From an uncultured Bacteroidales bacterium (GTDB lineage: Bacteria; Bacteroidota; Bacteroidia; Bacteroidales; UBA932): DNA of 7,528 nt. Position 1 is the first letter of the stretch. Each line of letters begins with the position of its first letter. The notes under the pieces were generated by a model. That model did not search any database. It was not told the DNA's origin and saw nothing but the letters and a program-made list of their open reading frames with translations. The stretch covers positions 1-7,528 of the forward strand of contig CAMZCW010000110.1 in the NCBI GenBank assembly GCA_947305045.1, written 5' to 3'. Of this stretch, positions 694-2,039 are shown one piece after another. The position numbers and the translations under genes are program-made.

Positions 694-1125
694 ATGAAAA
701 TTGGCATTTGCAACGACCACGCAGGCGTGGAGTACAAGTTTAAACTCATCAAGATGCTCCAGAAACGCGGCATTGAGGTTGTGAATTTTGGCACGGACAC
801 CACCGACAGCGTGGATTATCCGGACTTTGCCCATAAGCTGGCCTATGCCGTGGAAAACGGCGAGGTGGACCTGGGCATCGCCCTTTGCGGAACCGGCAAC
901 GGCATGGCCATCACCCTGAACAAGCACCAGGGCATCCGCGCCGGCCTGGCCTGGGGCACCGCCATCGGCCATCTGGTGGCGCAGCACAACAACGCCAACG
1001 TGCTGGTGCTGCCGGCCCGCTTCATCAGCTACCGCCTGGCATCGGCCATCGTGCGCGAGTGGCTGGACACCCCGTTTGAGGGTGGCCGTCACCAGAAGCG
1101 CATCGACAAGATGCCCGTTAAATGA
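694..1125 (+). CDS. rpiB: Ribose-5-phosphate isomerase B (RpiB/LacAB family)
   Basis: RpiB interconverts D-ribose 5-phosphate and D-ribulose 5-phosphate in the non-oxidative pentose phosphate pathway, in the cytoplasm. The 143-residue protein has nearly the usual length of about 150. It starts MKIGICNDHAG, with the substrate-binding Asp8-His9 pair. Catalytic Cys65 sits in ALCGTGNG, His98 in AQHNNANVL, and the phosphate-binding arginines are Arg132 and Arg136 in EGGRHQKR. The start at 694 is preferred over an in-frame TTG at 619, because family similarity begins with MKIG and 619 lies upstream of the promoter box. The stop overlaps the truB start by four bases (ATGA). Related LacA/LacB sugar-phosphate isomerases share the fold, but the Cys65/His98 pair and the lack of lactose genes favour RpiB. 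A few residues depart from the E. coli protein, so another phosphosugar substrate remains possible. Confidence 0.9.
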   Translation: MKIGICNDHAGVEYKFKLIKMLQKRGIEVVNFGTDTTDSVDYPDFAHKLAYAVENGEVDLGIALCGTGNGMAITLNKHQGIRAGLAWGTAIGHLVAQHNNANVLVLPARFISYRLASAIVREWLDTPFEGGRHQKRIDKMPVK

Positions 1126-2039
1126 GTTTCTCCCGTGACATTGCCGACTATCCGGAAGGCATTGTGCTGGCGGTAGACAAGCCCTACCGCTGGACCTCGG
1201 CGGATGTCATCCGCAAGCTCAAGTACGCCGCCATCAGGCACTTCGGGAAGAAGAACCTGAAGGTGGGGCATGCGGGCACGCTGGATCCGCTGGCAACGGG
1301 GGTGCTGCTGGTTTGCATCGGCAATGCCTGCAAACGGGCGCAGGAGCTGCAGGACCACGACAAAGAATACATTGCGCGCATCCGCTTTGGCGCCACCACC
1401 CCGTCGTATGACCTGGAAAAGGAGGTGGACCGCCGGTTTCCGTATGAGCACATTACGGCCGATGCCGTTCGCGCAGCCCTTCCCGCCTTCCTGGGCGAGC
1501 AGGAGCAGGTGGCCCCGCTGTTCAGCGCCAAGAGCGTGGACGGGGTCCGGGCCTATGAACTGGCCCGCAAGCTGTACCGCGCCGGCAACACAGCGGCCAT
1601 CGACGCCGCCGCCCTGGAAACCCTCCAGCGTAACCGCATCACTATTAGCGAGTTGGAACTACTGGCCTATTCCGAGGAGGGTATAGAGGTCTCCGAACCG
1701 TCGCTCCGCGACCCCTCCCAAGCGCAACGCTCTTTGAGCGGCTGTGGGCCCCTCCCTCTTACACGGCCGAGGGTGGCCATGGGTTCGGAGACCTCTATAC
1801 CCTCCTCCGCATCGTCCCGCATCCATGTGGCCGATACTTCGGGGCTGGGGCTGCCGGAGGCCACCATCCGCATCGCGTGCTCCAAGGGCACGTACATCCG
1901 CGCCTTCGCCCGCGACCTGGGAGAGACGCTGGGCTCCGGGGCGCACCTGAGCGGGCTCATCCGCTCCCGGAGCGGAGATTATACCATCGACCAGGCACTT
2001 TCCGTAGAGGAGGCCCTGACATTGTTACAAGCAGAATGA
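1122..2039 (+). CDS. truB: tRNA pseudouridine(55) synthase TruB with an in-frame palindromic insertion
   Basis: TruB isomerises U55 in the T-loop of nearly all tRNAs to pseudouridine. The 305-residue frame shows the family blocks in order: KPYRWTSADVIRKLK (20-34), VGHAGTLDPLATGVLL with catalytic Asp55 (48-63), KEYIARIRFG with Tyr83 (81-90), the PLFSAKSVDGVRAYELAR block (132-149), and CSKGTYIRAFARDLG (253-267). The oddity is residues 185-229, rich in Ser, Pro, Arg and Gly, encoded by a 134-bp palindromic element. In E. coli TruB only about ten residues separate the strand ending 'ELLFIRHEG' from CSKGTYIR. Here more than 60 do. Removing 135 bases restores Tyr-Ser-Ala-Ser-Ser-Arg with no frame change. 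The insert falls in a loop between strands, away from Asp55, so the enzyme is probably still active, but this is inference. The gene overlaps rpiB and the next gene by four bases each. Confidence 0.93.
   Translation: MSFSRDIADYPEGIVLAVDKPYRWTSADVIRKLKYAAIRHFGKKNLKVGHAGTLDPLATGVLLVCIGNACKRAQELQDHDKEYIARIRFGATTPSYDLEKEVDRRFPYEHITADAVRAALPAFLGEQEQVAPLFSAKSVDGVRAYELARKLYRAGNTAAIDAAALETLQRNRITISELELLAYSEEGIEVSEPSLRDPSQAQRSLSGCGPLPLTRPRVAMGSETSIPSSASSRIHVADTSGLGLPEATIRIACSKGTYIRAFARDLGETLGSGAHLSGLIRSRSGDYTIDQALSVEEALTLLQAE
1674..1807. repeat. 134-bp palindromic element inserted in frame in truB (26-bp perfect inverted arms)
   Basis: The left arm 1674-1699 (gaggagggtatagagg...) is an exact reverse complement of the right arm 1782-1807, 26 of 26 bases. 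Pairing breaks just outside (C1673/C1808) and just inside (G1700/G1781). The 82-base interior holds three smaller hairpins: GTCGC-TCC-GCGAC at 1700-1712, CGCTC-TTT-GAGCG at 1728-1740, and GGCC-GAGGGT-GGCC at 1765-1778. The whole can therefore fold as one long stem closing a three-branched loop. CCCCTCCC occurs twice inside (1712-1719 and 1749-1756). TCCG is repeated at 1671-1674 and 1806-1809, a possible target-site duplication, and 1675-1809 is exactly 135 bases or 45 codons. It is read through in frame in truB, and the opposite strand is also open. There is no room for a transposase, so if mobile it is non-autonomous. Rickettsia palindromic elements and REP sequences are analogies in behaviour only; I see no sequence match. 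Confidence 0.85.

Follow-up and report, generated by a model that had tools for sequence, protein, structure and literature searches.

A 134-bp palindromic element lies in frame inside the truB gene of an uncultured Bacteroidales bacterium. It belongs to a family dispersed through related genomes, whose arms differ from locus to locus while staying complementary within each copy, and whose core is conserved and appears, from sequence comparison, to invert in place. We consider it fairly probable (about 0.6) that this is an old, short palindromic, non-autonomous selfish element with a life style akin to that of the Rickettsia palindromic elements (RPEs). Such an element would have multiplied across the genomes of a single Bacteroidales lineage; it would survive inside genes because the copies that remain leave the frame open and are placed in loops that tolerate them. 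Its arms would be kept complementary mainly by polymerase template switching, in which one arm is copied from the other, and template switching between strands would flip the core.

To our knowledge, in-frame coding palindromes are known mainly from Rickettsia. The Bacteroidales lineage described here is common in animal guts and bears them in 18 kinds of protein, RNA-modifying and cell-wall enzymes included, which makes the family a natural test case of selfish DNA living inside working proteins. Because related genomes are plentiful, it is also a natural experiment on the routes by which selfish DNA comes to be part of a protein, on what keeps palindromes perfect and on the rate at which template switching inverts DNA inside genes.

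The element inside truB

The window, that is, the whole stretch of DNA analysed (7,528 nt), encodes besides truB an RpiB-type isomerase, an NlpC/P60 protein, a mandelate-racemase-type enzyme, a tRNA-Ser(CGA), a C1-type peptidase and an ABC-ATPase protein, which was read as UvrA-like. The only Rfam match over the gathering score in the window is a tRNA, and none was obtained for the element. The truB frame (1122-2039) is open through the whole element, which corresponds to TruB residues 185-229. Pfam TruB_N and TruB_C_2 lie on opposite sides of it, the latter at 27.5 bits, just below the cut-off of 29.3, so the in-frame insertion between surviving TruB blocks described in the initial annotation holds. 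The gap between the matched blocks is 28 residues in the best-matching solved TruB (1sgv) versus 95 in the window TruB. An AlphaFold2 model of the window TruB, made with 28 related rows, is of moderate quality (mean pLDDT 63.6, pTM 0.52); in this model residues 188-238, between strands 170-184 and 246-253, have pLDDT <50, and the insert is predicted to be a low-confidence, probably disordered loop between these two strands.

The two perfect 26-bp arms reported earlier from inspection of the letters were confirmed; they enclose an 82-nt core. The arms (1674-1699 and 1782-1807) are reverse-complementary at 26/26 positions and can be extended to 36 nt at 89%. We calculate that a window this large would contain, by chance, a flawless 26-bp inverted repeat within 200 nt with a probability of roughly 1e-9 or lower. 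The fold of positions 1660-1820 has z = -6.87, and 0/200 shuffles were equally stable.

Copies of the element were compared in relatives. A pattern search found 75 copies, of which 68 have clear arms and 7 were dropped from arm counts; three of these 7 (L105, L108, L109) were dropped for unclear arms, yet their arms were seen in another examination. Alignment A1 holds 49 of the 75 copies (arm score >=13, recognisable inner arm end, distinct core), and its pairing figures therefore lean to well-formed copies; armless scars are left out of every pairing count. The covariance model R1 was built from the 49 copies of A1 and hence matches them by construction, including the window, which is one of these rows (positions 1678-1803, minus strand, 135.1 bits, E 3.4e-30). 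The features in the window are as follows, with the basis of each in brackets.

1122..2039, plus strand: truB, tRNA pseudouridine(55) synthase, 305 aa, host of the element (ORF, Pfam, solved-structure match, orthologues)
1674..1699, plus strand: left arm, 26 nt, perfectly reverse-complementary to the right arm; its translation is EEGIEVSEP (repeat search, arm census)
1700..1781, minus strand: core, 82 nt, conserved module; orientation B is the minus strand here and is taken as the functional strand (alignment A1, pair counts, R1 match)
1700..1712, minus strand: hairpin H1, GTCGC loop GCGAC, minus-strand loop GGA of GNA type (alignment A1, pair counts, loop census)
1713..1716, minus strand: linker AGGG (minus strand), single-stranded, joining H1 to H2 (alignment A1)
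1717..1748, minus strand: hairpin H2, variable in length and sequence among copies, closed by CCCA/TGGG (alignment A1, pair counts, loop census)
1749..1761, minus strand: G-rich linker, minus-strand sequence TAAGAGGGAGGGG, in which 1754-1758 probably pairs with the H3 loop as a pseudoknot (alignment A1, covariation)
1762..1781, minus strand: hairpin H3 with a conserved loop, ACCCTC on the minus strand; 1769-1773 is complementary to 1754-1758 (alignment A1, pair counts, loop/linker covariation in relatives)
1782..1807, plus strand: right arm, 26 nt, encodes GSETSIPSS (repeat search, arm census)

Read in orientation B, the core runs from H3 (loop ACCCTC) through the linker TAAGAGGGAGGGG, the variable H2 and the AGGG linker to H1, and the arms close all of these. 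In the family as a whole, arms are 14-35 nt (median 26), cores 60-114 nt and whole elements 100-174 nt. Pairing in A1 holds for 97.4% of 1856 cells versus 74.3% after shuffling, and slid versions all drop to 37-45%; both-sided changes are present at 26/38 pairs. According to these comparisons, the core is a conserved three-hairpin module with a probable pseudoknot. Support for the pseudoknot comes from the aminotransferase gene, where H3 loop and linker covary across four genomes, namely CCCTC/GAGGG (L226), CCCGT/ACGGG (L227), CCCCC/GGGGG (L234) and TCCTC/GAGGA (L231). This contact is itself a short inverted repeat, which template switching could equally keep matched.

The loops also differ between the strands. 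The H1 loop is of GNA type in 49/49 A1 copies, closed by C-G in 48/49, while a GNA loop in H2 is present on strand B in 34/49 copies versus 10/49 on strand A (mean 16.5 and maximum 25 in 500 shuffles). Excerpts of PMC4686876 describe GNA-rule loops as giving very stable DNA mini-hairpins. Nearest-neighbour energies make H1 equally stable on both strands, and whole cores fold better on strand B in 42/49 (DNA) and 39/49 (RNA) copies. The GNA loops suggest that strand B is of importance as folded single-stranded DNA, although they could also be a coincidence.

Distribution and host genes of the family

A search of 5.8 billion proteins with the insert region (E <= 10) returned 17 proteins, comprising 15 TruBs (the window's included) and two APH/RapZ_C proteins (E about 0.04), which bear the same peptide in a linker and were omitted from the TruB alignment. 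With the 134 bp of DNA, 6-26 matches per genome were found in 10/10 relatives, some copies being listed as two pieces, and R1 found 7-28 copies per genome in the 10/10 relative genomes (E <= 0.01). Within the genus, R1 matched 34/41 genomes with 1-45 matches each (E <= 1e-4). A plain DNA search at family level matched 25/149 genomes, and R1 at order level matched 5/295 genomes, G001 among them, under stricter filters than in the ten-genome search. As judged from these searches, the family looks confined to one lineage within the sampled order. Locus titles of the truB set name uncultured Bacteroidales, many of them ruminant-derived, and Candidatus Cryptobacteroides is the sole source name given for a close TruB. 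As a probe for phage carriage, a single exact 16-nt pattern from the core had 0 matches in viral_contigs. The initial annotation knew of no such named family in Bacteroidota, and no earlier description of the present family was found in the open-licence literature searched.

Among the 68 clear-armed copies, 40 lie in frames with no stop over at least 40 aa to either side, a count that takes in L003 and L114, for which the frames used are probably not the true gene frames (L114 is without a Pfam match). Other copies are intergenic, and copies occur in both orientations and in several reading frames. Judged by a Pfam match in the frame of the element, the hosts are 18 kinds of protein in 17 Pfam families, given here with our reading of their types in brackets: TruB, Methyltransf_4 (TrmB type), Ala_racemase_N (YggS type), DHH, Radical_SAM_N (PF08497 gene, YgiQ type), two different Glycos_transf_2, PG_1098, MurB, PP-loop protein (TilS type), UPF0004/radical SAM protein (MTTase type), RibF, UvrA, PseudoU_synth_1 (TruA), SpoU, Aminotran_1_2, DAP epimerase and APH/RapZ_C. 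This census supports the earlier suggestion of coding palindromes dispersed in Bacteroidota, in frame in many unrelated genes in the manner of RPEs.

RNA-modifying hosts seem frequent, with TruB, TruA, TrmB type, SpoU, TilS type and MTTase type making up 6/18 kinds, which may be due to sampling. The MurB of G001 has a second, different in-frame insert (GGTPFA...GPSP...SEGSG), and a similar one is found in a DapF frame (L112, L206).

For truB itself, loci were compared in 80 of 241 confirmed stretches from GTDB genomes, and a recognisable element was present at the truB site in 23/80, down to about 62% TruB identity; the pattern matched part of these loci only, and the remainder were judged with R1. 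Many relatives have the same gene without the element. The expectation that relatives have a short loop at this place was partly borne out, since those without the full element do have a shorter loop, but many close relatives carry the element. Orthologues lacking the segment exactly at residues 185-229 did not emerge: no clean empty site was established among the relatives' loci read, and several short truB orthologues look like internal deletions. Flanks read by eye revealed no consistent target-site duplication.

Two further truB copies (L005, L016), with perfect 27- and 24-nt arms and a core without an R1 match, seem to represent another subfamily at the same site. In G001, seven near-identical copies of a sister subfamily (L122-L128, H3 loop ACCCCC), most within longer shared flanks, possibly belong to a recently active branch.

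Arms, core and orientation

Perfect arms are present in 26/68 copies, and 66/68 have at most 3 mismatches. In A1, 97.9% of arm cells are paired (49 copies) and 19/22 arm pairs have changed on both sides. Arm identity is 0.96 within a copy (28 copies), 0.89 between orthologous copies (15 pairs) and 0.62 between paralogous copies in one genome (92 pairs), versus 0.52 after shuffling. Each locus thus has arms of its own, which are inherited and are matched anew to each other in every copy. Between truB and ygiQ orthologues (4-fold divergence 0.18-0.55), 0-17 of the 26 left-arm positions have changed, against 0-3 mismatches inside any one copy. The arms of 24 truB copies (the window and the 23 loci) are quite different in sequence but have 0-4 mismatches, with none in 14/24 (in 4 of these 14 the arms are just 10-14 nt), and at least one frame is open across the element and 150 nt on each side in 24/24. 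The exact arm identity had been taken earlier as a possible sign of recent insertion, which the occupied truB site in distant relatives and the arms that differ between species do not support; with the site shared and the arms different, arm identity points to continuing homogenisation or selection, not to youth.

Mismatches are biased, with left A/right G at 30 positions versus left G/right A at 8 (1776 positions), and at position 8 of the A1 arms, some 15 nt from the arm's inner end, a G-U on strand B recurs (10/49 copies) in otherwise near-perfect arms. The best candidate for an empty site, in a glycosyltransferase gene of G001 (L265), repeats the outer 13 nt of an arm, which a deletion scar also explains. 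This repeat and the locus-specific arms prompted the idea that arms are copies of the target site, which was set aside as unproven because microhomology deletion explains L265 and the arms share a loose consensus (arm logo of 20 anchored rows, some anchored wrongly).

The core is conserved to a greater degree between loci, with an identity of 0.88 for orthologous and 0.82 for paralogous copies. Over its 3' 38 nt, truB pairs with a 4-fold divergence of 0.18-0.55 have 0-9 differences, and the window has only 0-2 relative to L001-L003 (4-fold divergence 0.18-0.30). The core is not wholly fixed, as the first 20 nt show 11-12/20 differences between H1 types and 0-3 within a type. Conservation of the core in place exceeds the expectation for a dead copy, and template switching leaves it unexplained. 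Concerted replacement of cores between loci was considered, as paralogue core identity is nearly at orthologue level, but is not favoured because a locus, such as the aminotransferase, keeps its own H1 variants.

As for orientation, the TruBs P0013 and P0021 are alike in all 225 compared flanking residues and in the arm peptides, while their cores are read in opposite directions, and a codon-level check on the peptides showed that the two core peptides fit a single inversion between the arms. An intergenic copy with the same arms also reads as flipped between two genomes (L140, L152). The two orientations number 12 and 11 in the 23 truB loci (weakest matches 30-32 bits) and 21 and 19 among open-frame copies. 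Of 120 TruB proteins that passed the pattern, 38 and 35 without an assigned orientation were excluded from two orientation counts. On the weakly resolved TruB tree, at least 18 orientation changes are needed, or 14, 13 and 4 when branches under 50, 80 and 95 are collapsed, whereas shuffled labels gave means of 28.0, 24.4, 22.2 and 8.9, with a minimum of 19 on the full tree and of 4, equal to that observed, at the 95 collapse. When the core was inverted in silico, 38/40 open-frame copies stayed open, versus 66% of shuffled cores open forwards; as the counted copies are related, these are not 40 independent trials.

Each copy might instead act in situ as nucleic acid, for example as mRNA structure or as a nucleoid or replication signal, with the arm changes being compensatory mutations under selection on pairing. 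Much of the core and its pairing is conserved at the same gene position despite widely differing 4-fold sites, and both-sided changes occur in H1, H3 and the H3 loop/linker contact, all of which speaks for this explanation. It is nevertheless unlikely, because a role in mRNA is hard to square with both orientations at one gene position (12/11 in truB, 21/19 in open frames), and many relatives do without the element in the same gene. Compensatory evolution via RNA usually passes through G-U, whereas the arms are almost purely Watson-Crick, with G-U on strand B in 28 of about 1078 A1 arm cells, 10 of which fall at a single position. The presence of both orientations at one and the same place in a gene likewise counts against an RNA ribozyme or an mRNA bypass element.

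The inversions, as distinct from the family itself, might be assembly artefacts. All relative genomes are metagenome assemblies, and 26-bp arms can confuse a short k-mer assembler and let it join the core either way. We regard this as improbable, since orientation tracks the TruB tree better than shuffled labels do (18 changes versus a mean of 28.0 and minimum of 19; at the 95 collapse, 4 versus a mean of 8.9 and minimum of 4), and whole elements of about 134 bp fit within one sequencing read of 150 bases. It is more improbable still that the element is a site-specific inverton, in which a recombinase acts on the arms and brings about phase variation of the host proteins. Invertons abound in gut Bacteroidales, and in-place inversion with identical flanks (P0013/P0021) is what such a system would give. 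Recombinase sites are conserved in sequence, however, whereas the arms here differ by locus within one genome (0.62 versus 0.52 shuffled); the hosts are housekeeping genes, and inversion in TruB would alter just a probably disordered loop. Intragenic invertons, with DNA inversion within bacterial genes, were reportedly described by Chanin in 2024; DNA inversion inside genes is common to both systems, but the Bacteroidales arms form no conserved recombinase site. Lastly, an ancestral TruB loop or domain, as which an occupied site in 23/80 related truB loci might be read, can practically be dismissed, since the same core is present in many other genes and at intergenic sites of relatives, in either orientation and with unrelated peptides.

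Proposed mobility and comparison with known systems

Under the preferred reading of an RPE-like selfish element, template switching explains the behaviour of the arms and the flips without selection, but not the kept core sequence. The core may be conserved as the part recognised in mobility, with copies turning over, or for a DNA-level role in situ. The mobile form would be folded single-stranded DNA of orientation B, as its hairpin loops follow the GNA rule, and such a form would be a fitting substrate for an HUH (Y1) transposase supplied in trans. A tentative and rather doubtful extension is that the family represents a novel class of mobile DNA. Its unit would be a module of folded single-stranded DNA with three hairpins and a pseudoknot, closed by a stem of free sequence; HUH enzymes would move it in trans, and it would persist in housekeeping genes because host replication re-perfects the arms and flips the core, the core being shaped to be translatable both ways.

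According to parts of PMC10969869 and PMC6649704, RPEs (Ogata 2000, 2002) are about 150 bp long and lie in frame in many unrelated genes. The present family resembles them, as they are described there, in size, in being palindromic, in occupying many unrelated genes of a single lineage in frame and in being tolerated as protein. It differs in belonging to another phylum and in a core that inverts in place, the likeness being one of life style. RPE arms are reported in the excerpted PMC6649704 to lose identity with time, whereas the Bacteroidales arms stay complementary while drifting, with 0-4 mismatches in 24/24 copies at a truB site common to distant relatives.

Perfect coding palindromes are also described for Nematomorpha mitochondria in the same excerpts (PMC6649704), where template switching was proposed. 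Both systems have long, near-perfect inverted repeats inside protein genes that are kept perfect. The Nematomorpha arms encode conserved protein regions, and those excerpts describe no dispersed conserved core, unlike the Bacteroidales core, which is dispersed and lies in loops. Extracts of PMC8604942 attribute arm homogenisation and spacer inversion, coding DNA included, to template switching, in line with the behaviour proposed here; the cases in those extracts concern yeast and spacers of a few bases, whereas the inverted Bacteroidales core has 60-114 nt and is part of a repeat family.

The element shares terminal inverted repeats with MITEs, but its arm sequence is locus-specific. REP/BIME elements are hairpins that work with RAYT (Y1) transposases. 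The Bacteroidales family is similar to the REP/BIME-RAYT pairs (cf. PMC3733652) in its hairpins and in the candidate HUH enzymes of the same genomes, and differs in its larger three-hairpin unit, its long arms, its frequent position inside genes and its not flanking the 24 Y1 genes examined.

Y1 transposase genes are present in 10/10 genomes (34 matches). No mobilising enzyme was identified among them, with 24/34 matches looked at, and no parent transposon with the same ends was found by this search for Y1 genes. R1 gave 3 strong matches in the 24 Y1 loci, of which two are, by contig, the truB copy itself and the third lies about 3 kb away. One Y1 gene (L308) is flanked on both sides by weak R1 matches (19.0 and 17.1 bits, E 0.011 and 0.033), which look like another hairpin family.

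In G005 and G009 (L298, L299), the truB element has a Y1 (HUH) transposase gene in its neighbourhood, at distances of about 0.3 and 1.4 kb. Several Y1 genes (L304, L308, L311, L315, L317) are flanked by their own hairpin repeats, which differ between types as in REP/RAYT pairs. Finally, the aminotransferase loop between YRAEV and KFIYVIP (L226-L248) holds several different palindromic families in different genomes, such as repeats of the TGGACCWGGTCCA type (L232, L233, L236) and of the GTGCACCCCCGCAC type (L235), and thus stands out as a hot spot for coding palindromes.
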